Shown here: positions 9,101 through 57,500 of the stretch, piece by piece | Layout: every line of letters starts with the position of its first letter | Position numbering within the stretch: the first letter of the stretch is position 1 | Origin: Paragorgia papillata | Lineage: Eukaryota; Cnidaria; Anthozoa; Scleralcyonacea; Coralliidae | Direction of reading: 5' to 3' | Assembly: GCA_035771165.1 (NCBI GenBank) | Contig: JAWNZC010000471.1 | Location: 2,323,001-2,387,000 of the forward strand | Length of the DNA: 64,000 nt | The notes under the pieces: model-generated | What the model saw: the letters and a program-made list of their open reading frames with translations, nothing else | What the model was told of the DNA's origin: nothing | Databases searched by the model: none | Program-made: the position numbers and the translations under genes

Positions 9101-9535
9101 TACTACAGTACACCCTTGAAACACAGTCGGTTATATACGCAAAATCTAATGTATAAGAATCATTCTATATTGGCTTTGACATACACACAAACTTGCCCAA
9201 TATTTGAAACGGGTCCAAAAAATGTCATTATTATTACTGCTAGAATTCGTTTTCTACGTACCTTTTGTATAAGTTGTACTATTCAAGTCTTCCAAAAGGC
9301 TATCCAGTTCAGATAAGTTAGTCCCTAAACTCATTGTGGTGTTTCTAGCACTGCCATTTGAAAGAGACTCTTTCGGTGGAGCGGGTATCGGAGGAGGGGA
9401 ATCTGTTGGGTCTCTGGTCGTCTTCGTCGACCCTCCGATGGGCATAGCTTGCAAATCGGCGAGTAACGCATCTAAAAAATCGATATTGTCTTTAAATTTT
9501 GATGAAACATCACGGCTGGGTCTCGCATCGGCCAT
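119..9535 (-). CDS. PXN: Paxillin, focal-adhesion LD/LIM adaptor (complete, 6 coding exons)
   Basis: Scaffold of integrin adhesions that binds FAK/vinculin-type partners through LD motifs and targets to adhesions through LIM domains. Coding exons, 5' to 3': 9262-9535, 5501-5578, 3915-4163, 2289-2593, 1371-1601, 119-385; all junctions are GT/AG and phases match, giving 467 aa. Visible motifs: LD1 [10 protein letters not shown] (20-29), proline-rich [11 protein letters not shown]2 [12 protein letters not shown] (74-85), LD3 ESLLSELDS (119-127), LD4 [13 protein letters not shown] (156-168), LD5 [11 protein letters not shown] (210-220), then four LIM domains from Cys234 to the end, which reads [12 protein letters not shown]. 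Shorter than vertebrate paxillin (about 560-590 aa), mostly in the LD1-LD4 linkers. One YxxP site (YAKP, Tyr186). The start is the first ATG of the LD1 exon; an upstream non-coding exon is possible. Hic-5 or leupaxin would be paralogues within this family; a single-copy paxillin orthologue is likeliest. Confidence 0.95.
1651..1779. mobile_element. Short TTAA-ended MITE, copy 1
   Basis: Inverted ends TTAACCCATTCCTGCCT and AGGTAGGAATGGGTTAA enclose about 95 bp, in the paxillin intron between exons 4 and 5. The inner text (TGTCTGGTGTTAGA and similar) recurs in the copies near 5923 and 6298 and in partial copies near 14562, 27199 and 54690. Confidence 0.7.
2705..3045. mobile_element. hAT-like non-autonomous element with 8-bp target duplication
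   Basis: Ends CAGTGATGGATCC and GGATTTGTG-type complement (CCATCACTG at the right end) are inverted, and the flanks carry the identical 8-bp word AAACAAAG at 2697-2704 and 3046-3053. CAGTG ends with an 8-bp duplication fit the hAT superfamily. No transposase is present. It lies in the paxillin intron between exons 3 and 4. Confidence 0.8.
3058..3260. repeat. AT-rich TAATTA simple repeat
   Basis: About 200 bp made almost only of TAATTATAATTA-type words, in the intron between paxillin exons 3 and 4. The rest of this intron up to 3914 is AT-rich, with several GCGGGTTAT words and no recognised gene. Confidence 0.75.
4235..4435 (+). mobile_element. 5S/tRNA-like SINE, 3'-truncated copy
   Basis: Begins GTGTGCTGTTAG...CTGCCTCTCACC, then GTACTTGGATGGGTGACTGC, a near match to the internal promoter (box C) of 5S rRNA. 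Ends in the shared CCGGTTTTCCTCCCTC body. Same family as the copies at 12824, 14083 and 62160. It lies in a paxillin intron, antisense to the gene. Confidence 0.8.
4605..4933. mobile_element. Palindromic MITE (TTTACAGTCAAA ends), copy 1
   Basis: Left end TTTACAGTCAAATGGAAAT and right end ATTTCCATTTTGACTGTAAA are inverted, and pairing continues inward for tens of bases (CCTTCCCACTTC and GAAGTGGGAAGG). A second, left-truncated copy lies at 62740-62999 in FTSJ3. Superfamily not determined. Confidence 0.7.
5923..6025. mobile_element. Short TTAA-ended MITE, copy 2
   Basis: Inverted ends TTAACCCTTTCAC and GTGAAAGGGTTAA surround a core with ATCATCTGGTGTTAGCC, shared with copies 1651 and 6298. Paxillin intron 1. 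Confidence 0.7.
6298..6398. mobile_element. Short TTAA-ended MITE, copy 3
   Basis: Inverted ends TTAACTCTTTCCTGTCCG and CGGACAGGAATGAGTTAA, core AGTATTTTATTCTGGCTAAT. Paxillin intron 1, which otherwise shows only AT-rich sequence and the elements listed between 5579 and 9261. Confidence 0.75.
7341..7634. mobile_element. Foldback MITE with AGCCACAG ends
   Basis: Left AGCCACAGCTTACTGTCGTG and right CACGACAGTAAAT...CTGTGGCTT arms pair across about 300 bp, with TA on both sides. An inner pair (AACTTCCTGTTTTGAAT and ATTCAAAACAGGAAGTT) makes a second hairpin. Related end sequence recurs at about 7679 and 7791. Confidence 0.65.
8005..8139. repeat. 135-bp near-perfect palindrome
   Basis: AATACATGGATG...GGAAATATGAAATTTATTTC pairs with GAAATAAATTTCATATTTCC...CATCCATGTATT; the loop holds CACTCGTTCGCTTCACTCAC. 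Just upstream (7870-7930) a GATAATC/CACATGTG palindrome may belong to the same element. Confidence 0.6.
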
Positions 9536-12039
9536 GCTGGAGCCACAAGCTGACCGAAGTTTGGTTCCTTGGGTTTCGATTTAAAAGCTGAACCGAGAAG
9601 GATAACGCCCCAATTCGAGCGAGATGTTTCCGTTGAGAGAAAATGAAAGATAAACGGCTTCAGGAGAATTTGAAGGACAGACGACAGTCACTTTCCTCCA
9701 CGTGTATACACACACGTTGATGTTTTAATAGATTAGATGTGACAGGAGAAAGTTTATTATTTTGAGGAACCCTCAGTCATGAATTATTTATCTCGCAGAG
9801 AGAGCTTTATTTCGCTAGCATGGGGCAATTCGCTTTTTCGAACGAATCCCCAAACCCCTGACGACCTAAAAGACTGCGATTTAATCGGGAATCATTGATA
9901 ACAAATTACTTCTTCTGGCTAAAAAACTGTACAAAAAAACCCGGCATTGTAATACAAATAGAGTAAGAGATCTAAGACAAATATAAGCTAAGTGCTTCGG
10001 TAAGCCCCAGACAAAATAGCAGTCAGCTATCATCGTTGACGAAAGAGCAAACACGTTGACCAACCAAACAGGCAAATATGGTGCCGCTCTTTCGCAATAG
10101 GTTTCATAAGTCGGTAAAGGTACACATTACGATGTATATTTGTTGGGTAATTCTGTTTATTCGAGTGCTGTTTGTCATTGCCTTGTGCCCGAATTTGGCA
10201 AGTTCGATAGACACACAGTTTGACAAAGATGTAGTCATGTGTTTGTTTAGAAACAACTTACAGTGTAATTGCACATTCGGAAAGCGCTAATTTGGTTTAC
10301 TGAACCACCCAGATTGAAAAACAGACGAGAAAGCATTCGGTTGAACTTGAGAAACACAAACAGAAATACTCTTACCTAAATCGTCCATTTCACCAAAATG
10401 GTAGTCAGATGTCTTCTCGCGTTTTTACTGTAACACGTCGATGTATTATTATTCTCGATCAACAAACCTTTTAATAGTGTTTGGAATCCGGTAGAAATCG
10501 AGTCTACTCTTGCCAAACAACTAAGCAGTCTTTTTTCCCTTCCTCTACAAATCGAGATCGCTTGTGGTGATATTTTTTTATCTTATCACTGGAAATGAAA
10601 TCCACCAATTTCTGAAATCCATCACAAGGGGCAGATCGAGTTCGCTAAAATTTATGCATTCCTTGTCCATATATGGAAGCAGGACGGGTGTTTATTTTAG
10701 TCAAGTGTCCTGCCTTCCATGCGTGACGACTGCAAAACACTATTAAAGAAATGTCTTTGAATGAGGACGGATGGAATCTTCTACTAACGACCGTTCAAGA
10801 AACACCGAAAACAAGTGTTTCTTTTTAGAAATTTTTAAAATCTATTTTTCAAGTATTTGGTCAAAAGTGTAGTAAATCCAATTACCGTTTGCGGTCACGC
10901 AGTTATTCTGGGTCACGCATACATATTTTACACGCATAAATATAAACATCAAATCATAATCAAATTGAACCTCACCTTTCAGTAAAAAAATACAGATATC
11001 AAATTATGTGGTTTGTGGAGACATAATCGACGGGCCATTTTATTTCTTTATTGGAAGATTGAGCAAATATTGAAATAAAATTCGAGCAAAATTGTAAACA
11101 TGTCTAAAAAATTCTTGCAATGGTTTAATTTTAACAAGAAACATTTCTGGCGTGATAAAATTGCGGAAACCCTTCGATCTGTATGATCAGTAAGTTCGTT
11201 CATTCGTAGAAATCGTGACTGTCGCAGCAGCAGCTTTTTTGCCTTCGTACGTACGCGCGCTCTTTTTTTGCGTTAGGAATACGAGTGGTCCTTGGTTCAT
11301 TGGCCTTAAAAGTCTCTAAACTCCGTTGCTCTATATCAAAGCAAGTAAAGTATCATTAAGATGATCAAGTACCCGAAAGATACTCCCCACTCCCCAGTAG
11401 GAGTTAGGATAGTGGTGTAGTATTGAAGCCTGTTATAGTGTTATATATGTTCCAGACGAAAAATAATTAGTACCCTGTTTTATTAGACAAAAACATGGCA
11501 AGATGTATATTTTGTTCCAAATACTAAATAACTGGAATCCTAAAAAAATACACGTGACCTTGTTCTAGACCAAGAGAGAATATTGAGGTGAAAATTTGGT
11601 TAATTTATGGGGATTTTATATCAGCATTTTATAGACGAATTTCAGGATATTCCGGTATTGCGCGCGCGTCATTTTGGAAAGGAATTCGCGGGCTCTCCAC
11701 AAAGCAAGCAATGGCAATTAGACTTGCTAGCGAGCCAACAACAGCAGAATAACAGCGTTAAACATCCAGAAACTGTATCTATACTTTGTTGATTTTAAAC
11801 AGTATGTTTACTTTGAGTGGAGTTTGCCAGTTTTTTTGAAAAATGATGCGCGCGCAATACCCTGAAACTCGCCTTTATATGCAATTTCTTCATATCGAAA
11901 GAATTTATATTTCCAGCTCGGGTATTAATTATACGTTCAAAAGATTCACTAAAACATTAATATTCAATGCTTTCCTCAACTACCAGTGAGCCGTGTACGG
12001 TATTTTGACTCAATTATCTAAATGATAAAACAAAAATTA

Positions 12040-13747: not shown

Positions 13748-34957
<21,210 letters not shown>

Positions 34958-35000: not shown

Positions 35001-35008
35001 CAAAATAA
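35001..35008. repeat. Left target-site duplication CAAAATAA
   Basis: Identical to 51777-51784; the two copies bracket the foldback element exactly. Confidence 0.95.
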
Positions 35009-35080
35009 GGCCCTTTCTCGATATATGAGCAACCGAAATAGAGGAGCTTATTGGGAAGAAGCGTACTTAGCTCGCCCCAG

Positions 35081-38000
35081 TCCTCCTTAGACTGCCTTAG
35101 AATGACTTAGACTGACTTAGACCGACTTAGACTGACTTAGGCTGACTTAGGCTGACTTAGGCTGACTTAGACTGACTTAGACTGACTTAGGCTGACTTAG
35201 ACCGACTTAGACTGACTTAGGCTGACTTAGACTGACTTAGGCTGCCTTAGACCGACTTAGACTGACTTAGACTGACTTAGACTGACTTAGACTGACTTAG
35301 ACCGACTTAGACCGACTTAGACCGACTTAGACCGACTTACACTGACTTACACTGACTTAGGCTGACTTAGACCGACTTAGACTGACTTAGACTGACTTAG
35401 GCTGACTTAGGCTGACTTAGACCGACTTAGACCGACTTAGGCTGACTTAGGCTGACTTAGACCGACTTAGACCGACTTAGACCGACTTAGACCGACTTAG
35501 ACTGACTTAGACTGACTTAGACTGCCTTAGACCGACTTAGACCGACTTAGACTGACTTAGACTGACTTAGGCTGACTTAGACTGACTTAGACTGACTTAG
35601 GCTGCCTTAGACCGACTTAGACTGACTTAGGCTGACTTAGACTGACTTAGACTGACTTAGGCTGACTTAGACTGACTTAGGCTGCCTTAGACTGACTTAG
35701 ACCAACTTAGACTGACTTAGGCTGCCTTAGACCGACTTAGACCGACTTAGACTGACTTAGACTGACTTAGACTGCCTTAGACCGACTTAGACCGACTTAG
35801 ACTGACTTAGACTGACTTAGGCTGACTTAGACTGACTTAGACTGACTTAGGCTGCCTTAGACCGACTTAGACTGACTTAGACTGACTTAGGCTGACTTAG
35901 ACTGACTTAGGCTGCCTTAGACCGACTTAGACCAACTTAGACCGACTTAGACTGACTTAGGCTGACTTAGACCGACTTAGACTGACTTAGACTGACTTAG
36001 ACTGCCTTAGACCGACTTAGACCGACTTAGACCGACTTAGACTGACTTAGACTGACTTAGACTGCCTTAGACCGACTTAGACCGACTTAGACTGACTTAG
36101 ACTGACTTAGGCTGACTTAGACTGACTTAGACTGACTTAGGCTGCCTTAGACCGACTTAGACTGACTTAGGCTGACTTAGACTGACTTAGACTGACTTAG
36201 GCTGACTTAGACTGACTTAGGCTGCCTTAGACCGACTTAGACCAACTTAGACTGACTTAGGCTGCCTTAGACCGACTTAGACCGACTTAGACTGACTTAG
36301 ACTGACTTAGACTGCCTTAGACCGACTTAGACCGACTTAGACTGACTTAGGCTGACTTAGACTGACTTAGACTGACTTAGACTGACTTAGACTGACTTAG
36401 ACTGACTTAGGCTGCCTTAGACCGACTTAGACTGACTTAGGCTGACTTAGACTGCCTTAGACCGACTTAGACCGACTTAGACCGACTTAGACTGACTTAG
36501 GCTGACTTAGACCGACTTAGACTGACTTAGACTGACTTAGGCTGACTTAGACTGACTTAGGCTGCCTTAGACCGACTTAGACCAACTTAGACCGACTTAG
36601 ACTGACTTAGGCTGACTTAGACCGACTTAGACTGACTTAGACTGACTTAGGCTGCCTTAGACCGACTTAGACTGACTTAGACTGACTTAGGCTGACTTAG
36701 GCTGCCTTAGACCGACTTAGACTGACTTAGACTGACTTAGGCTGACTTAGACTGACTTAGGCTGCCTTAGACTGACTTAGACTGACTTAGGCTGACTTAG
36801 ACTGACTTAGGCTGACTTAGACTGACTTAGGCTGACTTAGACTGACTTAGGCTGACTTAGACTGACTTAGACTGACTTAGGCTGCCTTAGGCTGCCTTAG
36901 ACCGACTTAGACTGACTTAGGCTGACTTAGGCTGACTTAGACCGACTTAGGCTGACTTAGACCGACTTAGACTGACTTAGGCTGACTTAGGCTGACTTAG
37001 ACTGACTTAGGCTGCCTTAGACCGACTTAGACTGACTTAGGCTGACTTAGACTGACTTAGACTGACTTAGGCTGCCTTAGACCGACTTAGACTGACTTAG
37101 GCTGACTTAGACTGACTTAGACTGACTTAGGCTGACTTAGACTGACTTAGGCTGCCTTAGACCAACTTAGACTGACTTAGGCTGCCTTAGACCGACTTAG
37201 ACCGACTTAGACTGACTTAGACTGACTTAGACTGCCTTAGACCGACTTAGACCGACTTAGACTGACTTAGGCTGACTTAGGCTGACTTAGACTGACTTAG
37301 ACTGACTTAGACTGACTTAGACTGACTTAGACTGACTTAGGCTGCCTTAGACCGACTTAGACTGACTTAGGCTGACTTAGACTGCCTTAGACCGACTTAG
37401 ACCGACTTAGACTGACTTAGGCTGACTTAGACCGACTTAGACTGACTTAGACTGACTTAGGCTGACTTAGACTGACTTAGGCTGCCTTAGACCGACTTAG
37501 ACCAACTTAGACCGACTTAGACTGACTTAGGCTGACTTAGACCGACTTAGACTGACTTAGACTGACTTAGGCTGCCTTAGACCGACTTAGACTGACTTAG
37601 ACTGACTTAGGCTGACTTAGGCTGCCTTAGACTTAGACTGACTTAGGCTGCCTTAGACCGACTTAGACTGACTTAGACTGACTTAGGCCGACTTAGACTG
37701 ACTTAGGCTGACTTAGACTGACTTAGACTGACTTAGGCTGCTGATTAGACTGACTTAGACTGACTTAGGCTGCCTTAGACCGACTTAGACTGACTTAGGC
37801 TGACTTAGACTGACTTAGACTGACTTAGGCTGACTTAGACTGACTTAGGCTGCCTTAGACTGACTTAGACCAACTTAGACTGACTTAGGCTGCCTTAGAC
37901 CGACTTAGACCGACTTAGACTGACTTAGACTGACTTAGACTGCCTTAGACCGACTTAGACCGACTTAGACTGACTTAGACTGACTTAGGCTGACTTAGAC

Positions 38001-41000
38001 TGACTTAGACTGACTTAGGCTGCCTTAGACCGACTTAGACTGACTTAGACTGACTTAGGCTGACTTAGACTGACTTAGGCTGCCTTAGACCGACTTAGAC
38101 CAACTTAGACCGACTTAGACTGACTTAGGCTGACTTAGACCGACTTAGACTGACTTAGACTGACTTAGACTGCCTTAGACCGACTTAGACCGACTTAGAC
38201 CGACTTAGACTGACTTAGACTGACTTAGACTGCCTTAGACCGACTTAGACCGACTTAGACTGACTTAGACTGACTTAGGCTGACTTAGACTGACTTAGAC
38301 TGACTTAGGCTGCCTTAGAACGACTTAGACTGACTTAGGCTGACTTAGACTGACTTAGACTGACTTAGGCTGACTTAGACTGACTTAGGCTGCCTTAGAC
38401 CGACTTAGACCAACTTAGACTGACTTAGGCTGCCTTAGACCGACTTAGACCGACTTAGACTGACTTAGACTGACTTAGACTGCCTTAGACCGACTTAGAC
38501 CGACTTAGACTGACTTAGGCTGACTTAGACTGACTTAGACTGACTTAGACTGACTTAGACTGACTTAGACTGACTTAGGCTGCCTTAGACCGACTTAGAC
38601 TGACTTAGGCTGACTTAGACTGCCTTAGACCGACTTAGACCGACTTAGACCGACTTAGACTGACTTAGGCTGACTTAGACCGACTTAGACTGACTTAGAC
38701 TGACTTAGGCTGACTTAGACTGACTTAGGCTGCCTTAGACCGACTTAGACCAACTTAGACCGACTTAGACTGACTTAGGCTGACTTAGACCGACTTAGAC
38801 TGACTTAGACTGACTTAGGCTGCCTTAGACCGACTTAGACTGACTTAGACTGACTTAGGCTGACTTAGGCTGCCTTAGACCGACTTAGACTGACTTAGAC
38901 TGACTTAGGCTGACTTAGACTGACTTAGGCTGCCTTAGACTGACTTAGACTGACTTAGGCTGACTTAGACTGACTTAGGCTGACTTAGACTGACTTAGGC
39001 TGACTTAGACTGACTTAGGCTGACTTAGACTGACTTAGACTGACTTAGGCTGCCTTAGGCTGCCTTAGACCGACTTAGACTGACTTAGGCTGACTTAGGC
39101 TGACTTAGACCGACTTAGGCTGACTTAGACCGACTTAGACTGACTTAGGCTGACTTAGGCTGACTTAGACTGACTTAGGCTGCCTTAGACCGACTTAGAC
39201 TGACTTAGGCTGACTTAGACTGACTTAGACTGACTTAGGCTGCCTTAGACCGACTTAGACTGACTTAGGCTGACTTAGACTGACTTAGACTGACTTAGGC
39301 TGACTTAGACTGACTTAGGCTGCCTTAGACCAACTTAGACTGACTTAGGCTGCCTTAGACCGACTTAGACCGACTTAGACTGACTTAGACTGACTTAGAC
39401 TGCCTTAGACCGACTTAGACCGACTTAGACTGACTTAGGCTGACTTAGGCTGACTTAGACTGACTTAGACTGACTTAGACTGACTTAGACTGACTTAGAC
39501 TGACTTAGGCTGCCTTAGACCGACTTAGACTGACTTAGGCTGACTTAGACTGCCTTAGACCGACTTAGACCGACTTAGACCGACTTAGACTGACTTAGGC
39601 TGACTTAGACCGACTTAGACTGACTTAGACTGACTTAGGCTGACTTAGACTGACTTAGGCTGCCTTAGACCGACTTAGACCAACTTAGACCGACTTAGAC
39701 TGACTTAGGCTGACTTAGACCGACTTAGACTGACTTAGACTGACTTAGGCTGCCTTAGACCGACTTAGACTGACTTAGACCAACTTAGACTGACTTAGGC
39801 TGCCTTAGACCGACTTAGACCGACTTAGACTGACTTAGACTGACTTAGACTGCCTTAGACCGACTTAGACCGACTTAGACTGACTTAGGCTGACTTAGAC
39901 TGACTTAGACTGACTTAGACTGACTTAGACTGACTTAGACTGACTTAGGCTGCCTTAGACCGACTTAGACTGACTTAGGCTGACTTAGACTGCCTTAGAC
40001 CGACTTAGACCGACTTAGACCGACTTAGACTGACTTAGGCTGACTTAGACCGACTTAGACTGACTTAGACTGACTTAGGCTGACTTAGGCTGACTTAGGC
40101 TGCCTTAGACCGACTTAGACCAACTTAGACCGACTTAGACTGACTTAGGCTGACTTAGACCGACTTAGACTGACTTAGACTGACTTAGGCTGCCTTAGAC
40201 CGACTTAGACTGACTTAGACTGACTTAGGCTGACTTAGGCTGCCTTAGACCGACTTAGACTGACTTAGACTGACTTAGGCTGACTTAGACTGACTTAGGC
40301 TGCCTTAGACTGACTTAGACTGACTTAGGCTGACTTAGACTGACTTAGGCTGACTTAGACTGACTTAGGCTGACTTAGACTGACTTAGGCTGACTTAGAC
40401 TGACTTAGACTGACTTAGGCTGCCTTAGGCTGCCTTAGACCGACTTAGACTGACTTAGGCTGACTTAGGCTGACTTAGACCGACTTAGGCTGACTTAGAC
40501 CGACTTAGACTGACTTAGGCTGACTTAGGCTGACTTAGACTGACTTAGGCTGCCTTAGACCGACTTAGACTGACTTAGGCTGACTTAGACTGACTTAGAC
40601 TGACTTAGGCTGCCTTAGACCGACTTAGACTGACTTAGGCTGACTTAGACTGACTTAGACTGACTTAGGCTGACTTAGACTGACTTAGGCTGCCTTAGAC
40701 CAACTTAGACTGACTTAGGCTGCCTTAGACCGACTTAGACCGACTTAGACTGACTTAGACTGACTTAGACTGCCTTAGACCGACTTAGACCGACTTAGAC
40801 TGACTTAGGCTGACTTAGGCTGACTTAGACTGACTTAGACTGACTTAGACTGACTTAGACTGACTTAGACTGACTTAGGCTGCCTTAGACCGACTTAGAC
40901 TGACTTAGGCTGACTTAGACTGCCTTAGACCGACTTAGACCGACTTAGACCGACTTAGACTGACTTAGGCTGACTTAGACCGACTTAGACTGACTTAGAC

Positions 41001-44000
41001 TGACTTAGGCTGACTTAGACTGACTTAGGCTGCCTTAGACCGACTTAGACCAACTTAGACCGACTTAGACTGACTTAGGCTGACTTAGACCGACTTAGAC
41101 TGACTTAGACTGACTTAGGCTGCCTTAGACCGACTTAGACTGACTTAGACTGACTTAGGCTGACTTAGGCTGCCTTAGACCGACTTAGACTGACTTAGAC
41201 TGACTTAGGCTGACTTAGACTGACTTAGGCTGCCTTAGACTGACTTAGACTGACTTAGGCTGACTTAGACTGACTTAGGCTGACTTAGACTGACTTAGGC
41301 TGACTTAGACTGACTTAGACTGACTTAGACTGACTTAGGCTGCCTTAGGCTGCCTTAGACCGACTTAGACTGACTTAGGCTGACTTAGGCTGACTTAGAC
41401 CGACTTAGGCTGACTTAGACCGACTTAGACTGACTTAGGCTGACTTAGACCGACTTAGACTGACTTAGGCTGACTTAGACTGACTTAGGCTGCCTTAGAC
41501 CGACTTAGACTGACTTAGACTGACTTAGACTGACTTAGACTGACTTAGACCGACTTAGACCGACTTAGACCGACTTAGACCGACTTACACTGACTTACAC
41601 TGACTTAGGCTGACTTAGACCGACTTAGACTGACTTAGACTGACTTAGGCTGACTTAGGCTGACTTAGACCGACTTAGACCGACTTAGGCTGACTTAGGC
41701 TGACTTAGACCGACTTAGACCGACTTAGACCGACTTAGACCGACTTAGACTGACTTAGACTGACTTAGACTGCCTTAGACCGACTTAGACCGACTTAGAC
41801 TGACTTAGACTGACTTAGGCTGACTTAGACTGACTTAGACTGACTTAGGCTGCCTTAGACCGACTTAGACTGACTTAGGCTGACTTAGACTGACTTAGAC
41901 TGACTTAGGCTGACTTAGACTGACTTAGGCTGCCTTAGACTGACTTAGACCAACTTAGACTGACTTAGGCTGCCTTAGACCGACTTAGACCGACTTAGAC
42001 TGACTTAGACTGACTTAGACTGCCTTAGACCGACTTAGACCGACTTAGACTGACTTAGACTGACTTAGGCTGACTTAGACTGACTTAGACTGACTTAGGC
42101 TGCCTTAGACCGACTTAGACTGACTTAGACTGACTTAGGCTGACTTAGACTGACTTAGGCTGCCTTAGACCGACTTAGACCAACTTAGACCGACTTAGAC
42201 TGACTTAGGCTGACTTAGACCGACTTAGACTGACTTAGACTGACTTAGACTGCCTTAGACCGACTTAGACCGACTTAGACCGACTTAGACCGACTTAGAC
42301 TGACTTAGACTGACTTAGACTGCCTTAGACCGACTTAGACCGACTTAGACTGACTTAGACTGACTTAGGCTGACTTAGACTGACTTAGACTGACTTAGGC
42401 TGCCTTAGACCGACTTAGACTGACTTAGGCTGACTTAGACTGACTTAGACTGACTTAGGCTGACTTAGACTGACTTAGGCTGCCTTAGACCGACTTAGAC
42501 CAACTTAGACTGACTTAGGCTGCCTTAGACCGACTTAGACCGACTTAGACTGACTTAGACTGACTTAGACTGCCTTAGACCGACTTAGACCGACTTAGAC
42601 TGACTTAGGCTGACTTAGACTGACTTAGACTGACTTAGACTGACTTAGACTGACTTAGACTGACTTAGGCTGCCTTAGACCGACTTAGACTGACTTAGGC
42701 TGACTTAGACTGCCTTAGACCGACTTAGACCGACTTAGACCGACTTAGACTGACTTAGGCTGACTTAGACCGACTTAGACTGACTTAGACTGACTTAGAC
42801 TGACTTAGGCTGACTTAGACTGACTTAGGCTGCCTTAGACCGACTTAGACCAACTTAGACCGACTTAGACCGACTTAGACTGACTTAGGCTGACTTAGAC
42901 CGACGACTTAGACTGACTTAGACTGACTTAGACCGACTAGACCTGACTTAGACTGACTTAGGCTGACTTAGACTGATTAGGCTGACTTAGACTGACTTAG
43001 GCTGACTTAGGCTAGACTGACTTTAGACTGACTTTAGGCTGACTTAGACTGACTTAGGCTGACTTAGACTGACTTAGGCTGACTTAGACTGACTTAGACT
43101 GACTTAGGCTGCCTTAGGCTGCGACTTAGACCGACTTAGACTGACTTAGGCTGACTTAGGCTGACTTAGACCCGACTTAGGCTGACTTAGACCGACTTAG
43201 ACTGACTTAGGCTGACTTAGACTGACTTAGCTGACTTAGACTGAACTTAGACTGACTTAGGCTGCCTTAGACCGACTTAGACTGACTTAGGCTGACTTAG
43301 ACTGACTTAGACTGACTTAGGCTGACTTAGACTGACTTAGGCTGCCTTAGACCAACTTAGACTGACTTAGGCTGCCTTAGACCGACTTAGACCGACTTAG
43401 ACTGACTTAGACTGACTTAGACTGCCTTAGACCGACTTAGACCGACTTAGACTGACTTAGGCTGACTTAGGCTGACTTAGACTGACTTAGACTGACTTAG
43501 ACTGACTTAGACTGACTTAGACTGACTTAGGCTGCCTTAGACCGACTTAGACTGACTTAGGCTGACTTAGACTGCCTTAGACCGACTTAGACCGACTTAG
43601 ACTGACTTAGGCTGACTTAGACCGACTTAGACTGACTTAGACTGACTTAGGCTGACTTAGACTGACTTAGGCTGCCTTAGACCGACTTAGACCAACTTAG
43701 ACCGACTTAGACTGACTTAGGCTGACTTAGACCGACTTAGACTGACTTAGACTGACTTAGGCTGCCTTAGACCGACTTAGACTGACTTAGACTGACTTAG
43801 GCTGACTTAGGCTGCCTTAGACCGACTTAGACTGACTTAGACTGACTTAGGCCGACTTAGACTGACTTAGGCTGACTTAGACTGACTTAGACTGACTTAG
43901 GCTGCCTTAGACCGACTTAGACTGACTTAGGCTGACTTAGACTGACTTAGACTGACTTAGGCTGACTTAGACTGACTTAGGCTGCCTTAGACTGACTTAG

Positions 44001-47000
44001 ACCAACTTAGACTGACTTAGGCTGCCTTAGACCGACTTAGACCGACTTAGACTGACTTAGACTGACTTAGACTGCCTTAGACCGACTTAGACCGACTTAG
44101 ACTGACTTAGACTGACTTAGGCTGACTTAGACTGACTTAGACTGACTTAGGCTGCCTTAGACCGACTTAGACTGACTTAGACTGACTTAGGCTGACTTAG
44201 ACTGACTTAGGCTGCCTTAGACCGACTTAGACCAACTTAGACCGACTTAGACTGACTTAGGCTGACTTAGACCGACTTAGACTGACTTAGACTGACTTAG
44301 ACTGCCTTAGACCGACTTAGACCGACTTAGACCGACTTAGACTGACTTAGACTGACTTAGACTGCCTTAGACCGACTTAGACCGACTTAGACTGACTTAG
44401 ACTGACTTAGGCTGACTTAGACTGACTTAGACTGACTTAGGCTGCCTTAGAACGACTTAGACTGACTTAGGCTGACTTAGACTGACTTAGACTGACTTAG
44501 GCTGACTTAGACTGACTTAGGCTGCCTTAGACCGACTTAGACCAACTTAGACTGACTTAGGCTGCCTTAGACCGACTTAGACCGACTTAGACTGACTTAG
44601 ACTGACTTAGACTGCCTTAGACCGACTTAGACCGACTTAGACTGACTTAGGCTGACTTAGACTGACTTAGACTGACTTAGACTGACTTAGACTGACTTAG
44701 ACTGACTTAGGCTGCCTTAGACCGACTTAGACTGACTTAGGCTGACTTAGACTGCCTTAGACCGACTTAGACCGACTTAGACCGACTTAGACTGACTTAG
44801 GCTGACTTAGACCGACTTAGACTGACTTAGACTGACTTAGGCTGACTTAGACTGACTTAGGCTGCCTTAGACCGACTTAGACCAACTTAGACCGACTTAG
44901 ACTGACTTAGGCTGACTTAGACCGACTTAGACTGACTTAGACTGACTTAGGCTGCCTTAGACCGACTTAGACTGACTTAGACTGACTTAGGCTGACTTAG
45001 GCTGCCTTAGACCGACTTAGACTGACTTAGACTGACTTAGGCTGACTTAGACTGACTTAGGCTGCCTTAGACTGACTTAGACTGACTTAGGCTGACTTAG
45101 ACTGACTTAGGCTGACTTAGACTGACTTAGGCTGACTTAGACTGACTTAGGCTGACTTAGACTGACTTAGACTGACTTAGGCTGCCTTAGGCTGCCTTAG
45201 ACCGACTTAGACTGACTTAGGCTGACTTAGGCTGACTTAGACCGACTTAGGCTGACTTAGACCGACTTAGACTGACTTAGGCTGACTTAGGCTGACTTAG
45301 ACTGACTTAGGCTGCCTTAGACCGACTTAGACTGACTTAGGCTGACTTAGACTGACTTAGACTGACTTAGGCTGCCTTAGACCGACTTAGACTGACTTAG
45401 GCTGACTTAGACTGACTTAGACTGACTTAGGCTGACTTAGACTGACTTAGGCTGCCTTAGACCAACTTAGACTGACTTAGGCTGCCTTAGACCGACTTAG
45501 ACCGACTTAGACTGACTTAGACTGACTTAGACTGCCTTAGACCGACTTAGACCGACTTAGACTGACTTAGGCTGACTTAGGCTGACTTAGACTGACTTAG
45601 ACTGACTTAGACTGACTTAGACTGACTTAGACTGACTTAGGCTGCCTTAGACCGACTTAGACTGACTTAGGCTGACTTAGACTGCCTTAGACCGACTTAG
45701 ACCGACTTAGACCGACTTAGACTGACTTAGGCTGACTTAGACCGACTTAGACTGACTTAGACTGACTTAGGCTGACTTAGACTGACTTAGGCTGCCTTAG
45801 ACCGACTTAGACCAACTTAGACCGACTTAGACTGACTTAGGCTGACTTAGACCGACTTAGACTGACTTAGACTGACTTAGGCTGCCTTAGACCGACTTAG
45901 ACTGACTTAGACCAACTTAGACTGACTTAGGCTGCCTTAGACCGACTTAGACCGACTTAGACTGACTTAGACTGACTTAGACTGCCTTAGACCGACTTAG
46001 ACCGACTTAGACTGACTTAGGCTGACTTAGACTGACTTAGACTGACTTAGACTGACTTAGACTGACTTAGACTGACTTAGGCTGCCTTAGACCGACTTAG
46101 ACTGACTTAGGCTGACTTAGACTGCCTTAGACCGACTTAGACCGACTTAGACCGACTTAGACTGACTTAGGCTGACTTAGACCGACTTAGACTGACTTAG
46201 ACTGACTTAGGCTGACTTAGGCTGACTTAGGCTGCCTTAGACCGACTTAGACCAACTTAGACCGACTTAGACTGACTTAGGCTGACTTAGACCGACTTAG
46301 ACTGACTTAGACTGACTTAGGCTGCCTTAGACCGACTTAGACTGACTTAGACTGACTTAGGCTGACTTAGGCTGCCTTAGACCGACTTAGACTGACTTAG
46401 ACTGACTTAGGCTGACTTAGACTGACTTAGGCTGCCTTAGACTGACTTAGACTGACTTAGGCTGACTTAGACTGACTTAGGCTGACTTAGACTGACTTAG
46501 GCTGACTTAGACTGACTTAGGCCGACTTAGACTGACTTAGACTGACTTAGGCTGCCTTAGGCTGCCTTAGACCGACTTAGACTGACTTAGGCTGACTTAG
46601 GCTGACTTAGACCGACTTAGGCTGACTTAGACCGACTTAGACTGACTTAGGCTGACTTAGGCTGACTTAGACTGACTTAGGCTGCCTTAGACCGACTTAG
46701 ACTGACTTAGGCTGACTTAGACTGACTTAGACTGACTTAGGCTGCCTTAGACCGACTTAGACTGACTTAGGCTGACTTAGACTGACTTAGACTGACTTAG
46801 GCTGACTTAGACTGACTTAGGCTGCCTTAGACCAACTTAGACTGACTTAGGCTGCCTTAGACCGACTTAGACCGACTTAGACTGACTTAGACTGACTTAG
46901 ACTGCCTTAGACCGACTTAGACCGACTTAGACTGACTTAGGCTGACTTAGGCTGACTTAGACTGACTTAGACTGACTTAGACTGACTTAGACTGACTTAG

Positions 47001-47810
47001 ACTGACTTAGGCTGCCTTAGACCGACTTAGACTGACTTAGGCTGACTTAGACTGCCTTAGACCGACTTAGACCGACTTAGACCGACTTAGACTGACTTAG
47101 GCTGACTTAGACCGACTTAGACTGACTTAGACTGACTTAGGCTGACTTAGACTGACTTAGGCTGCCTTAGACCGACTTAGACCAACTTAGACCGACTTAG
47201 ACTGACTTAGGCTGACTTAGACCGACTTAGACTGACTTAGACTGACTTAGGCTGCCTTAGACCGACTTAGACTGACTTAGACTGACTTAGGCTGACTTAG
47301 GCTGCCTTAGACCGACTTAGACTGACTTAGACTGACTTAGGCTGACTTAGACTGACTTAGGCTGCCTTAGACTGACTTAGACTGACTTAGGCTGACTTAG
47401 ACTGACTTAGGCTGACTTAGACTGACTTAGGCTGACTTAGACTGACTTAGACTGACTTAGACTGACTTAGGCTGCCTTAGGCTGCCTTAGACCGACTTAG
47501 ACTGACTTAGGCTGACTTAGGCTGACTTAGACCGACTTAGGCTGACTTAGACCGACTTAGACTGACTTAGGCTGACTTAGGCTGACTTAGACTGACTTAG
47601 GCTGCCTTAGACCGACTTAGACTGACTTAGACTGACTTAGGCTGACTTAGGCTGGCTTAGACCGACTTAGGCTGACTTAGACTGACTTAGACTGCCTTAG
47701 ACCGACTTAGACCGACTTAGACTGACTTAGGCTGACTTAGACTGCCTTAGACCGACTTAGACCGACTTAGACCGACTTAGACTGACTTAGGCTGCCTTAG
47801 ACTACCTTAG
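35081..47810 (+). repeat. Left arm: ~1,273 copies of a 10-bp satellite
   Basis: Consensus actgacttag. Common variants are gctgacttag, accgacttag, gctgccttag, actgccttag and accaacttag. Phase is unbroken from 35081 to about 37630 and from about 37749 to 42899, then again from about 43261 to the end. Higher-order structure: the doubled gctgccttag occurs at 36881, 39049, 40419, 41339, about 43109, 45181, 46551 and 47471, giving recurring 1,370- and 920-bp spacings. Confidence 0.97.
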
Positions 47811-47840
47811 ATTTGGCCTACACAAAGGAGTTCCAGTGGA

Positions 47841-48763
47841 ACTGGGAGAGTAAAGCTTTATACTTTTGACTTCTTGATAAAACGTTTTAAAAAACTCATG
47901 AGAATATCAATGTAAACGAATAGTGAATGGGTAGTTTTTCACCTTTTAATTTTATGTGGAAATAGGTAAGTTTATATGCGGGTAGATATTTTGATCTTAT
48001 GTTGTATAAGATATATTACTAAATAATTACCAATTGTTGGACCAGGTGACCAAAAATATTATAATTTGTCAGTATCGATCGTAATTAAAGTAAATATCGT
48101 AGTTATTATCGCAATAATTATCGTAGTTATAAAATGTTTAATATGTCTTTATAAGCAGAGTGCCCGATTTACAAGTTCAAAAGCTATTCAACTTTTGTAT
48201 TTCGGTTTTTTTAACTTTAGCACAAATACTGAAATGCCAATCAAGCCATTATTCGATATTTCGACATACACTTTCAATAAAACTGCACCTCGTGATAAAA
48301 GTAATTTTAAAGCAATACACAGTCAATACAAGACTTATAAAAGACTGACAAAAACAGTTTATATTTAAAATTGTCAAAACACTACAACTGTAATTAACAA
48401 CAAATTATTTCCAAGTTATACAGACAAATGTTTATTGAGCATTAATGTCAGATCTAAAGTACTTTGACATCTTAACAATAGGGTGACTACAACTACCAGA
48501 ATGCTTTGCTAGCATCCTAGTGCTGATAAATGGAGCGCACTGGCAAAGCATTCTGGTAGTTGTAGTCACCCAACGCTATTTTACGTCATCGTGCAAATGG
48601 CTTATTGTACAATAATTCCACATAAAATTAAAACACAACCTATTTCCACATAAAATTAAAAGGTGAAAAACTACCCATTCACTATTCGTTTACATTGATA
48701 TTCTCATGAGTTTTTTAAAACGTTTTATCCAGAAGTCAAAAGTATAAAGCTTTACTCTCCCAG
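47841..48763. other. Central domain of the foldback element
   Basis: Inner arms 47841-47966 and 48639-48763 are inverted copies differing at one base (CTTGAT versus CTGGAT). Between them lie 672 AT-rich bases without a credible protein; the 100-aa frame at 48066 is low-complexity and has no domain. A duplicated CCACATAAAATTAAAA word sits at the right inner junction. Confidence 0.85.
48481..48571. repeat. Perfect 29-bp-arm hairpin nested in the centre
   Basis: GGGTGACTACAACTACCAGA...GCTTTGC at 48481-48509 is exactly complementary to 48543-48571, with a 33-base loop. Flanking AATA and CTATT suggest it is itself a small inserted MITE. Confidence 0.85.
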
Positions 48764-51710
48764 TCTAAGTCAGTCTAAGCCAGCCTAAGTCAGTCTAAGT
48801 CAGCCTAAGTCAGTCTAAGTCAGTCAAAGTCAGTCTAAGTCAGCCTAAGTCAGTCTAAGTCAGTCTAAGTCAGCCTAAGTCAGTCTAAGTCAGCCTAAGT
48901 CAGTCTAAGTCAGCCTAAGTCAGTCTAAGTCAGTCTAAGTCGCTCTAAAGCAGCCTAAGGCAGCCTAAGTCAGTCTAAGTCAGCCTAAGTCAGTCTAAGT
49001 CAGCCTAAGTCAGTCTAAGTCAGCCTAAGTCGGTCTAAGTCAGTCTAAGTCAGTCTAAGTCAGCCTAAGTCAGTCTAAGTCAGCCTAAGTCGGTCTAAGG
49101 CAGCCTAAGTCAGTCTAAGTCAGTCTAAGTCAGCCTAAGTCAGTCTAAGTCAACCTAAGTCGGTCTAAGTCAGTCTAAGTCGGTCTAAGGCAGCCTAAGT
49201 CAGTCTAAGTCAGTCTGAGTCAGCCTAAGTCAGCCTAAGTCAGTCTAAGTCAGTCTAAGTCAGCCTAAGTCAGCCTAAGTCAGCCTAAGTCGGCCTAAGT
49301 CAGCCTAAGTCAGTCTAAGTCAGCCTAAGTCGGTCTAAGTCAGCCTAAGTCAGTCTAAGTCAGTCTAAGTCGGTCTAAGTCGGTCTAAGGCAGCCTAAGT
49401 CGGTCTAAGTCAGTCTAAGTCAGCCTAAGTCAGTCTAAGTCAGCCTAAGTCAGTCTAAGTCAGCCTAAGTCAGTCTAAGTCAGTCTAAGTCGCTCTAAAG
49501 CAGCCTAAGTCAGTCTAAGTCAGCCTAAGTCGGTCTAAGTCAGTCTAAGTCAGCCTAAGTCAGTCTAAGTCAGCCTAAGTCGGTCTAAGGCAGCCTAAGT
49601 CAGTCTAAGTCAGTCTAAGTCAGTCTAAGTCAGTCAAAGTCAGTCTAAGTCAGCCTAAGTCAGTCTAAGTCAGTCTAAGTCAGCCTAAGTCAGTCTAAGT
49701 CAGCCTAAGTCAGTCTAAGTCAGCCTAAGTCAGTCTAAGTCAGTCTAAGTCGCTCTAAAGCAGCCTAAGTCAGTCTAAGTCAGCCTAAGTCAGTCTAAGT
49801 CAGCCTAAGTCAGTCTAAGTCAGCCTAAGTCGGTCTAAGTCAGTCTAAGTCAGTCTAAGTCAGCCTAAGTCAGTCTAAGTCAGCCTAAGTCGGTCTAAGG
49901 CAGCCTAAGTCAGTCTAAGTCAGTCTAAGTCAGCCTAAGTCAGTCTAAGTCAACCTAAGTCGGTCTAAGTCAGTCTAAGTCGGTCTAAGGCAGCCTAAGT
50001 CAGTCTAAGTCAGTCTAAGTCAGCCTAAGTCAGCCTAAGTCAGTCTAAGTCAGCCTAAGTCAGCCTAAGTCAGCGTAAGTCAGCCTAAGTCGGCCTAAGT
50101 CAGCCTAAGTCAGTCTAAGTCAGCCTAAGTCGGTCTAAGTCAGCCTAAGTCAGTCTAAGTCAGTCTAAGTCGGTCTAAGTCGGTCTAAGGCAGCCTAAGT
50201 CGGTCTAAGTCAGTCTAAGTCAGCCTAAGTCAGTCTAAGTCAGCCTAAGTCAGTCTAAGTCAGCCTAAGTCAGTCTAAGTCAGTCTAAGTCGCTCTAAAG
50301 CAGCCTAAGGCAGCCTAAGTCAGTCTAAGTCAGCCTAAGTCGGTCTAAGTCAGTCTAAGTCAGCCTAAGTCAGTCTAAGTCAGCCTAAGTCGGTCTAAGG
50401 CAGCCTAAGTCAGTCTAAGTCAGTCTAAGTCAGTCTAAGTCGGTCTAAGGCAGCCTAAGGCAGCCTAAGTCAGTCTAAGTCGGTCTAAGTCAGCCTAAGT
50501 CAGTCTAAGTCAGCCTAAGTCGGTCTAAGTCAGCCTAAGTCAGTCTAAGTCAGTCTAAGTCGGTCTAAGTCGGTCTAAGGCAGCCTAAGTCGGTCTAAGT
50601 CAGTCTAAGTCAGCCTAAGTCAGTCTAAGTCAGCCTAAGTCAGTCTAAGTCAGCCTAAGTCAGTCTAAGTCAGTCTAAGTCGCTCTAAAGCAGCCTAAGG
50701 CAGCCTAAGTCAGTCTAAGTCAGCCTAAGTCGGTCTAAGTCAGTCTAAGTCAGCCTAAGTCAGTCTAAGTCAGCCTAAGTCGGTCTAAGGCAGCCTAAGT
50801 CAGTCTAAGTCAGTCTAAGTCGGTCTAAGGCAGCCTAAGGCAGCCTAAGTCAGTCTAAGTCGGTCTAAGTCAGCCTAAGTCAGTCTAAGTCAGCCTAAGT
50901 CGGTCTAAGTCAGCCTAAGTCAGTCTAAGTCAGTCTAAGTCGGTCTAAGTCGGTCTAAGGCAGCCTAAGTCGGTCTAAGTCAGTCTAAGTCAGCCTAAGT
51001 CAGTCTAAGTCAGCCTAAGTCAGTCTAAGTCAGCCTAAGTCAGTCTAAGTCAGTCTAAGTCGCTCTAAAGCAGCCTAAGGCAGCCTAAGTCAGTCTAAGT
51101 CAGCCTAAGTCGGTCTAAGTCAGTCTAAGTCAGCCTAAGTCAGTCTAAGTCAGCCTAAGTCGGTCTAAGGCAGCCTAAGTCAGTCTAAGTCAGTCTAAGT
51201 CAGTCTAAGTCGGTCTAAGGCAGCCTAAGGCAGCCTAAGTCAGTCTAAGTCAGTCTAAGTCGGTCTAAGGCAGCCTAAGTCAGTCTAAGTCAGCCTAAGT
51301 CAGTCTAAGTCAGCCTAAGTCAGTCTAAGTCAGCCTAAGTCAGTCTAAGTCGGTCTAAGGCAGCCTAAGTCAGTCTAAGTCAGTCTAAGTCAGCCTAAGT
51401 CAGTCTAAGTCAGTTTAAGTCGGTCTAAGTCGGTCTAAGGCAGCCTAAGGCAGCCTAAGTCAGTCTAACTCAACCTAAGTCGGTCTAAGTCAGTCTAAGT
51501 CGGTCTAAGTTGGTCTAAGTCGGTCTAAGGCAGCCTAAGTCAGTCTAAGTCAGCCTAAGTCAGTCTAAGTCAGTCTAAGTCGGTCTAAGTCAGCCTAAGT
51601 CAGCCTAAGTCAGCCTAAGTCGGTCTAAGTCGGTCTAAGTCAGCCTAAGTCAGCCTAAGTCAGCCTAAGTCGGTCTAAGTCATTCTAAGGCAGTCTAAGG
51701 AGGACTGGGG
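48759..51710 (-). repeat. Right arm: ~295 copies of the 10-bp satellite, inverted
   Basis: Units cagtctaagt, cagcctaagt, cggtctaagt and cagcctaagg are reverse complements of the left-arm variants. The 10-bp phase has no indel over 2.9 kb. A variant not seen on the left, cgctctaaag, occurs at 48941, 49491, 49751, 50291, 50681 and 51061 and marks 260-550-bp higher-order repeats. Confidence 0.95.
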
Positions 51711-51776
51711 CGAGCTAAGTACGCTTCTTCCCAATAAGCTCCTCTATTTCGGTTGCTCATATATCGAGAAAGGGCC

Positions 51777-51784
51777 CAAAATAA
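51777..51784. repeat. Right target-site duplication CAAAATAA
   Basis: Identical to 35001-35008. Confidence 0.95.
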
Positions 51785-52248: not shown

Positions 52249-52266
52249 TCGTTTTCCTACCGCAAA

Positions 52267-52612
52267 ACGGTATGCACATGCATAACCACTACATGGTTAT
52301 CTGCATACCGCAAAAAGGTATGCACAAAACCACTACATGGTTATCTGCACGCCGGAAAACGGTATGCACATAACCACTACATGGTTATCTGCCTACCGGA
52401 AAACGGTATGCACATAACCACTACATGGTTATCTGCATACTTGAAAACGGTATGCACATAACCAGAACATGGTTATCTGCATACCGGAAAACGGTATGCA
52501 CATAACCACCACATGGTTATCTGCATACCCAAAAACGGTAACCGGAAAACGGTATGCACATAACTACCACATGGTTATCTGCATACCCGAAAACGGTATG
52601 CACATAACCACC
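52267..52612. repeat. Tandem array of ~44-bp hairpin units, 7-8 copies
   Basis: Each unit is CGGTATGCACATAACCA-CTACA-TGGTTATCTGCATACCG plus GAAAA. The two 17-base halves pair except for one C-C mismatch, so every copy is a self-contained hairpin. Compensating or single changes appear between copies. Confidence 0.85.
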
Positions 52613-54523: not shown

Positions 54524-57500
54524 ATGGGAAGAAAAAACAAAATTGGAAAACAACGTCGAGATAAATTTTATCATCTTGCAAAGGAGACAGGTAAGATGTT
54601 CTGTCATTTCCAGGAAAGGGATCTTATTACATTGGGGGAAGAGAGGGGAATAAGACACTAATTATCCCCCATTACGGTCTACTGCAGTAGTGCCTAGGAT
54701 GTCTTAGGGTTCTGCCTTTGACAAGTAAAATTGTCTGGCGTTATGCAGAGAAAAAATATAGAGGGGCTATTTTTGTTCAGGTTAGGCAGGAATAGGTTTA
54801 AAGAACTACTGACAAATACTGTGTTTCTTGTTCATTTATAGGTTATCGTGCTCGTTCTGCATTCAAACTTATTCAGTTGAATCGGAAGTTTGAATTTCTT
54901 CAGTCCTCTCGAGTTTGTATTGATCTTTGTGCAGCCCCAGGAGGATGGTAAAAAATAGATAATTAATTAATAATTTTTTTTTTATTTTCCTCTTTTGTCC
55001 TTTGTGTCTTTGGAAATTTTATTCCATCTTTCCAGTGATCTTTCCTAGTTTGTAAAATTATGAATTGTATTCTAAATTTAAGTCACTCTTAATCAATGGT
55101 TACAATAAATGTGGTGACATTAACCTGAACCAAAATTTATATATTTTCAATTGCTTTTAAGGTTACAAGTTGCTTCAAAGTTTATGCCCGTATCCAGTAT
55201 CATTATAGGTATTTATAAATCAGGTTCTGATGCAATCTCATTCCCAGAGCCCATGTTCCCCTTACCCAGTGGGCTGGAAACGAGAGGCTCTGGGATAATC
55301 CGTTCACACCATCACAGGATTCTTGTTATCCGGAAGAAGAGTTAATATATAGAGTTCACTGTGTTCATCAGCCAATGAAATATCAATGTGAAACAGATTA
55401 TCCCAGAGCCTCTTGTTTCCCGCCTGCTGGGTAAGGGGAACGTGGGCTCTGAGAACGAGATTGGTTCTGATGTTGTAAGGATAATTTTCCTACTAGTTTA
55501 ATTAAGGATTCATTATTTAATTTTCTAATCTTGTTTGATATTTAGGAGTTGACTTGGTGTCAATTAAACCCATTTCAAATGTGATTACTTTACAAGGAGA
55601 CATTACTACTCAGAAATGTAAACAGGTACTGGTAATAGCATGCTGTACATGTTTAGCTACAACAGAGATAAATAAACAAAGGGAAATAGATGTTTTTATT
55701 AGTCTCTTCAATAACCTTTACCAGTAACAAAAGGAAAAAAAGCTGTATGTACCAGGATTTCAAAAATATACTTAAAGATGGAGAGTTGGCTATTAATTGG
55801 AGGGGACAATTTGGGAAGGAAAAGAGGAATAGATTGATAGGGGGGAAATTATTATATTACTCACTGTAATGACTGAAGGGAATGTTTTAATTTTGAAGGA
55901 CATAAAGAAAGAATTAAAAACATGGAAAGCTGATTGTGTTCTCAATGATGGTGCACCAAATGTTGGTTCTTCTTGGGCACATGATGCCTTCTCACAAGGT
56001 GAATAAATTTACTAAATTAATTAATGAATTAATTATATTAATTATTAATTATATTAATTAATTAAACTAAATTAATTAATGAGTAATTAATATTAAATAA
56101 TAATATGTAATTAATTAATTAATTATCTTTTTAATAATTATTAATTTTAATCAATTTTATTTTTTTACATTTATTTATTTATTTATTTATCTATCTATTT
56201 ATTTTACTTACTTTTACGTATTTATTTATTTAATTAATCAATAATTAATTAAAATTAAATATGTACCTTATTTACCTTCCAGTACCTCTCATTGAGTTTA
56301 TCACCCATATCTCTCATTTTTAGCCCATCTAACACTGGCTGCTTTGAAAATTGCAAGTGACTTTTTAATCAAAGGGGGATGGTTTATCACAAAGGTACCA
56401 CATGATGAAAGATCCACGCTGACTTAAAATATCTAATATTAAGTATATATTATACCGTATATATGATTAGATCATAGTTGTCTATCTTTTTTTAGGTTTT
56501 TCGTTCAAAAGACTACCAACCTCTCATGTGGGTCTTTAATCAATTATTCAACAAAGTTCATGCAACCAAACCACAGGCTTCTCGTAATGAGTCAGCTGAG
56601 ATATTCGTTGTTTGCCAGGTGATCCTAAAACTTAAAGTAAACATTATTAATGGTTTAGTTGTAAAAAGTTTAAAATGTCTTACAAGAAATGTTAAACTTG
56701 TTTTAGGGTTACAAGGCACCTGACAAAATTGATCCCCAGTTGCTTGATTGGAAATGTATTTTTGAAGAAGTCAACCAAGAAGCAGTAAAGCCAGCGAGTC
56801 TTCTTAGCAACAAGGTTGATATTATCAATTGTTATTTGTGCGTAGACTAATATGTTTTGAAGACGTTTCTCAGGGTATGATATTGCAACATGCTTACTAG
56901 AAACTTGCTTGGTCGTTTAAAGTGCACACGTACCTTGAGTCATCAAGATATGCATTTAACCACGCGTGAGTTTAATTGGAGAAAATGTTCAAAAAAACTT
57001 TTTTGAGTGAATTATAACTTTTATACAATAACGTGACTTGTGTATTGTAATAGATCACAGAAGATGTCACAGTGTGTAAAGAACAACAGTCACACCACTC
57101 GACTTTGTCTCGTATTGTACTTTTTTGTTCATTACACACTGTGATGTCATCTGTGATCTATTACAGTGCACATGCATGGAAAGATGTAATCTATAACAAC
57201 AGAGCGTAACGTCCTGCAGCATAACAGAACGTTTAATAGTATAGCTGAATGCCTGAACGTGTTACAATGTGGCAATTTATAGTTTATATAAATTATGGTT
57301 AATGATATAGCAATTTCACTCTGTTCTGTGCACGAAGTCATCACATGCTTAGCTAACAGACCATACATGACTATCGTGTACACAAACAACCCATTGTCCC
57401 AAGAATACAACCTTTTCCAGTACCACAACGAAGGCACCACACAACTAAGCACTAATCCTACTAAGTATGCCCATTAGTCACTCCAACCATTCACGCATCC

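Follow-up and report, generated by a model that had tools for sequence, protein, structure and literature searches.

A foldback transposon with satellite arms and its dispersed family in the octocoral Paragorgia papillata

We analyzed a 64,000-nucleotide stretch of the Paragorgia papillata genome (GenBank assembly GCA_035771165.1, contig JAWNZC010000471.1, positions 2,323,001 to 2,387,000; G000:C471:2323001-2387000 in our notation), hereafter the window, and found in it a 16,768-bp block (35009-51776) bordered by the 8-bp duplication CAAAATAA. Comparison with the rest of the assembly confirmed that this block is a mobile element whose family counts dozens of members in the genome of this octocoral. 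It has long inverted arms composed of short tandem repeats, and it has target-site duplications and dispersed copies; both sets of features define foldback elements. The family is mobile, and it has gene-bearing relatives that are built in the same way. In our judgment, the window element is very probably a foldback transposon without a recognizable gene that belongs to this family and is likely moved by the predicted transposase of the related, same-build elements.

Build of the element and its dispersed copies

The sequence-only reading had described perfect 8-bp flanking duplications, identical inverted ends of at least 104 bp, satellite arms in opposite orientation and inner arms differing at one base. 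Each of these features was recovered (Table 1), with the inverted ends agreeing over 104 bases inward from 35009 and 51776 and the first mismatch at base 105. The last 4 bases of the right inner arm overlap the right array. At up to three mismatches, the first 18 bases of the end were found at just two places in the window, the element ends themselves (shuffles average 0.01), and random pairs of 8-mers outside the element are identical with a frequency of 9.3e-5. Given how rarely 8-mers agree at random and that the window has no further pair of such ends, a chance origin of the arrangement is very unlikely.

The left arm carries an internal duplication with a lag of ~6.1-6.3 kb, and exact internal duplications in its array reach 2646 bp. 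A strict 10-bp period holds in nearly all of this array outside the irregular patch, where eight of ten irregular units lie. Because irregular units cluster there, the exact left-arm length may be uncertain; the patch possibly reflects a consensus-quality problem or real decay. A protein-coding satellite was ruled out, the arrays being devoid of any stop-to-stop frame of 100 aa. A unit order common to both window arrays was likewise rejected, since the longest shared run is 11 units compared to 7-12 in 60 first-order simulations. A protein-family search with the longest frame of the 670-nt middle gave no match, and the window was without a match in Rfam at gathering scores. The hairpin in the middle contains ACTACAACTACCAGAATGC, which we take to resemble the ZNF143/SBS motif.

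Table 1 Features of the window element and of the neighboring genes (window coordinates; TIR, terminal inverted repeat; TRF, Tandem Repeats Finder)
Feature	Positions	Strand	Details
Left target-site duplication copy	35001-35008	.	CAAAATAA
Left terminal domain (TIR)	35009-35085	+	77 bp, starts with GGCCCTTTCTCGATATATGAG
Left arm	35086-47811	+	Array of 10-bp unit CTTAGACTGA and variants, ~1267 units, 12.7 kb; TRF, 89% matches
Irregular patch of left array	42894-43245	+	8/10 irregular units of the left array
Spacer	47812-47840	+	Unique, 29 nt, left side only in the window element
Left inner arm	47841-47967	+	127 nt
Middle	47968-48637	+	670 nt, colinear in sister copy C345
Hairpin inside middle	48481-48571	.	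32-nt arms
Right inner arm	48638-48764	-	127 nt, one mismatch to left inner arm
Right arm	48761-51699	-	Array of 10-bp unit CTTAGACTGA in opposite orientation, ~284 units, 2.9 kb; TRF, 88% matches
Right terminal domain (TIR)	51700-51776	-	77 bp, identical to left TIR
Right target-site duplication copy	51777-51784	.	CAAAATAA
Paxillin exons (LIM, Paxillin models) and EIF3C exons (eIF-3c_N, E 2.3e-30)	119-9580 and 20077-20397	-	

Searches of the species' own assembly (617.9 Mb) showed that the structure is repeated. A query of the 21 outermost bases gave 106 matches (57 + 49) at up to two mismatches, with none for the reversed control. For the 72-bp end, 40 scored matches at 97-100% were obtained from 87 candidates and, for the inner arm, 40 matches among 41 candidates. 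We read 12 complete copies, comprising ten pairs of ends (the window element included) and two copies completed inside retrieved stretches, which together span 3,250 to 16,768 bp. As the sequence-only reading had anticipated for a true family, all 12, on 11 contigs, have the same ends and their own 8-bp duplications, all different, with a one-base shift needed at one end of C9. Their arrays are opposed in 12/12, those of C9 being interrupted and mixed, and most copies contain the spacer and inner arm. Judged by eye, the 248-bp C7 has no evident duplication, and that of C3 agrees at 7/8 bases. Two copies considered as candidates for autonomy, C340 and C415, have longest frames of 136 and 124 aa.

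For copy C133, the C440 stretch represents an empty paralogous site. The 300 joined bases align to it end to end at 95.7%, with a single copy of the target CACAAGCT and one 8-base gap located 24 bases past the junction. The other 11 joined flanks gave no empty site in the genome stretches compared, a 35-base junction match for C9 being too short to count. The proposed empty-site check, thus, succeeded for C133, while for the window insertion the joined flanks were unmatched in those stretches.

These data also bear on the reading that two unrelated satellites face each other or that the block is an assembly artefact. The irregular patch and the exact duplications of up to 2646 bp do mark the array as hard to assemble. 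However, ends and duplications recur in the 12 complete copies on 11 contigs, most of them with spacer and inner arm, and one empty site exists. We, therefore, regard the block as one transposition unit, as originally claimed; the artefact reading has next to no probability, is refuted for the element as such and bears on arm length alone.

The copies vary in a modular way. In C353, an inner domain of ~550 bp, 98.7% identical in inverted orientation, surrounds a center with an OTU fragment, and the 29-nt spacer is present on both sides in C353 and C460. To judge from these sequences, C353 looks like a copy that retains a fuller plan of the family, and the 127-nt inner arm of the window element like a cut-down remnant of such a domain; the right side retains 127 bases of it, without the spacer. 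The hairpin-bearing segment 48481-48608 has the reverse orientation with respect to the remaining middle in at least five copies (C321, C291, C133, C126 and C381) but not in C345. In the C10 copy, the inner arms are ~13.6 kb apart. Open frames following middle position 303 of this copy (L026 4411-9849; G000:C10) resemble, by eye, Polinton/Maverick structural genes and are probably an insertion into that copy.

Gene-bearing relatives and a candidate transposase

The point at which C89 and C405 cease to be similar revealed the end GGCTCTTTCTCTATGTATCATG of gene-bearing elements, which share the end type GGCTCTTTCTC related to that of the window element. End GGCTCTTTCTCTATGTATCATG agrees with the window end at 16/21 bases, as did 0 of 200,000 shuffles, and occurs 19 times in the genome at up to two mismatches, against 0 for the control. 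It forms six inward pairs, of which five (C89, C237, C350, C405 and C445, not C314) enclose a match of the ~1000-aa protein described below. Each of C89 (19.2 kb) and C237 (6.5 kb) has an 8-bp duplication and, in its two arms, inverted arrays of a 9-bp unit. These arrays begin at base 76 in all four left ends read, and those of the window element at base 78. Another subfamily, represented by C251, has ends GGCGCTTTCTCGATATATGAA, the 8-bp duplication CGAAGGCC and arms of a different 10-bp unit, TCCTTAGCTA. A third satellite-armed foldback of ~9.2 kb was noticed within the left end of C322 (L041 82-401, L040 1-7064; G000:C322), with ends GGTAATAAGTCCATG, 20-bp units CTTGACATAACCTAGTATCA in opposite orientation and, by eye, an apparent 8-bp duplication CTTATTGT.

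Pieces of a related protein occur within the window's own family. The central frame of C251 had 25 genome matches, including C-terminal remnants (~40 residues at 50-53%) in seven family copies other than C3, C353 and C397. Copy C3 (1,981 bp), which has window-type ends (first 21 bases exact at both, 94.9% over 77), carries OTU-like, cysteine-rich CXC-type and C-terminal parts, the cysteine-rich part matching MSL2-CXC weakly, below the cut-off. OTU (PF02338) was detected in C353 at 3.5e-8 and in C397 at 3.2e-6; the OTU piece alone returned one uninformative match in the protein database. The related protein L038 had two unnamed matches in that database and, with 134 of 167 candidates scored, 122 in the genome, several of them in open frames >1000 aa. 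Full-length relatives of ~1000 aa are predicted to combine a DDE-like core, OTU and a cysteine-rich CXC-type domain. The 1073-aa frame of L046 contains the motifs DHTFK, IDNCC and NE..H, which by eye possibly form a DDE triad; DHTFK is common to L046 and C89, and IDNCC and NE..H are common to L046, L045 and L043. Tandem arrays were additionally observed 3' of full-length or long OTU-CXC genes (L044 1-1037, L045 2780-3814, L043 481-1175), with 9-bp units identified by TRF in L044 and L045 and by eye in L043.

We propose that the ~1000-aa OTU-CXC protein is the putative transposase, that it would recognize the element ends and that it would act in trans on window-type elements. The repeats, spaced about one helical turn apart, may then constitute an array of binding sites for it. 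Several points weigh against this proposal. In the window element, no remnant of the OTU-CXC gene was detected. Its ends differ from the gene-bearing ones at 5/21 bases, and the satellite units differ too. Among the copies compared, no intact gene was found between window-type ends, and, in the set of ends and hits that were compared, window-type and C251-type ends occur near remnants but never within 30 kb of full-length genes. Pfam searches of L046 and L045 up to E 10, with a filter that drops most weak matches, gave only OTU, below the cut-off, and no transposase model; NCBIfam and solved structures provided no match for the candidate protein. With no matching transposase model, the designation 'transposase' is based on the location between ends together with three motifs recognized by eye. 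Repeat binding is proposed by analogy with Galileo and Tetris. Lastly, the hAT-type frames of a single copy, C473, would allow for another source of transposase.

Two other sources of transposase were weighed. Mutator-like elements (MULEs) often capture genes. The element could be a MULE foldback moved by a MULE transposase undetected here, with the OTU-CXC pieces as captured passengers, a reading we hold to be improbable. It would account for the likeness to Tm1, which has arms of ~14-bp repeats and 8-10-bp duplications (PMC3169594). However, the duplications are 8 bp in 12/12 copies here, whereas those of Tm1 are mostly 9 (PMC3169594). They are also 8 bp in C251, C89 and C237, where ~9 bp would be typical of the Mutator/MULE superfamily; Mutator-type Tm1, however, spans 8-10 (PMC3169594). 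Related proteins, moreover, recur in elements of three end types, with five of the six pairs of one type enclosing one. No MULE domain was present in the frames scanned, most copies being read in part, and neither L046 nor L045 matched a MULE model with E allowed up to 10.

To a hAT, P or KDZ/Zisupton-type element that evolved long satellite arms we assign a similarly low probability. No hAT, P (THAP) or KDZ model matches the OTU-CXC protein (Pfam-A, E up to 10). The family ends begin GGC, which we counted against hAT, as hAT ends mostly start with CA or TA. The 8-bp duplications found in 12/12 copies do agree with this reading, such a length being typical of hAT elements and also described for Zisupton (PMC12730594). 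In Galileo, a member of the P superfamily, the transposase domain is bound by tandem repeats located in the long arms of the element (PMC3688188). In addition, the hAT-type frames of C473 (PF05699, PF14291; L027 8413-9928, G000:C473) lie between a left end at 1007671 and a right-facing inner arm at 1021567. This stretch also contains GRF-zinc-finger and Pox_A32-like frames, so that the hAT frames, seen in a single copy, look like part of later insertions. The OTU-CXC protein remains our preferred candidate for moving the family.

Further candidates were considered and set aside. Frames near unpaired ends (reverse transcriptase in L023, hAT in L027, a long interspersed nuclear element in C9 and the Polinton-like frames in L026) were judged nested or neighboring rather than partners, with less certainty for L027. 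Viral contigs contained no exact match to a 21-mer of the end, to a satellite 25-mer or to an inner-arm 20-mer. A 19-mer of the end matched one IMG/VR contig with at most 26 similar bases. In prokaryote contigs, the satellite 25-mer was found in one 3.6-unit stretch of a Flavobacterium metagenome-assembled genome, taken as unrelated.

Arm turnover and the surroundings of the element

The history of the arms can be followed in the sister copy C345 (10,484 bp), which has its own duplication CCATCATG and lies in opposite orientation to the window element. Across 953 bp comprising the spacer, both inner arms and the middle, the two show 0 substitutions and two gap positions (1-bp indel). The identical ends had been taken to imply a recent insertion; ends alone cannot date it, but recency is supported by C345 because it matches these 953 non-satellite bases without substitution. 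Exact array runs of 1,869 and 976 bp are common to both copies. Among 22 arrays compared, belonging to 11 elements (C9 was left out as interrupted), no other pair shares >277 bp.

The left array of the window element corresponds to approximately two tandem copies of the 6.5-kb array of C345, with sister positions 5013-6338 aligning to window 40123-41448 and 156-1024 to 41422-42290. Either the left arm has doubled since the two copies separated, in which case arms evolve far more rapidly than the core, or the doubling arose in the assembly. An irregular patch in the second half of the window array and other irregular units in C345 preclude certainty on this doubling. We suggest that arms grow and shrink through slippage and unequal exchange, which would explain a left arm about double that of C345. 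Two points weigh against this scheme: the doubled left arm could be an assembly error, and the two arms of C133 have a 277-bp run in common, by which arms do not always diverge independently.

Elsewhere in the window, the joined paxillin LIM exons (119-2633, minus strand) matched a partial protein of Paramuricea clavata at 100% identity, with 91% of the query covered; for Xenia, the identity was 91% and the coverage 85%. By themselves, these matches point to an octocoral, probably one near Paramuricea. Palindromic repeats resembling miniature inverted-repeat transposable elements were noted at 18035-18523 and 17079-17628, with possible TTAA duplications, and at 55233-55463, with the 9-base duplication GTTCTGATG. 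A 44-bp tandem repeat array (TACCGGAAAACGGTATGCACATAACC...) lies just beyond the element at 52256-52611.

Relation to known foldback elements

Foldback elements were first recognized around 1980. Which enzyme moves many of them and what their repeated arms are for are, to our knowledge, still open questions. FARE2 of Arabidopsis comprises foldback elements up to ~16.7 kb, the length of which is internal coding sequence, whereas that of the window element is almost all satellite. Drosophila FB and sea-urchin TU elements likewise have short tandem repeats in inverted arms around a variable middle; here, in contrast, an arm reaches 12.7 kb, and the ends and repeat unit differ. The sea urchin is also named as a foldback host in a study of Tetris from Drosophila virilis (PMC4079207). 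Tetris likewise consists of terminal, tandem-repeat and inner domains with a middle, generates 8-10-bp duplications and has arm repeats that also expand into satellite-like arrays; the repeats were suggested as binding sites (PMC4079207). It differs in its ~220-bp repeat, in arms of up to 1,735 bp and in that its transposase was not found, compared to 9-10-bp repeats and a candidate gene here. Tm1 of Meloidogyne similarly shows a variable number of ~14-bp arm repeats, 8-10-bp duplications and coding and non-coding members but has a Phantom/Mutator-type transposase and asymmetric terminal motifs (PMC3169594). Galileo shares long repeat-bearing arms, its tandem repeats being bound by its THAP domain (PMC3688188); in the elements studied here, arrays start 76-78 bases from the end. 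Galileo differs by a THAP/P-type transposase and by arms barely >1 kb.

The foldback structural class is old. In the literature, surveyed by title or abstract opening and mostly without subscription papers, we found no cnidarian foldback element and no OTU-CXC transposase. As far as this literature shows, three things are new: the sheer size of the satellite arms, the switch of repeat unit close to related ends from one subfamily to another, and the coding relatives. Novelty was judged on this basis, and the superfamily is left unassigned. Tentatively, and as less likely than not, we entertain an undescribed superfamily characterized by GGCNCTTTCTC ends, 8-bp duplications and an OTU/CXC-fused transposase. 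Lineage-specific 9-10-bp satellites would serve it as a helically phased landing array, its transposons would seed satellites and an arm could double with the rest unchanged.

A single genome here offers many copies, coding relatives of the same build and three end types with different 9-10-bp units near the end, while the sister pair shows arm growth against a fixed core. The P. papillata genome, thus, turns two ideas into directly testable questions: that arm repeats are transposase binding sites and that transposons make satellites.
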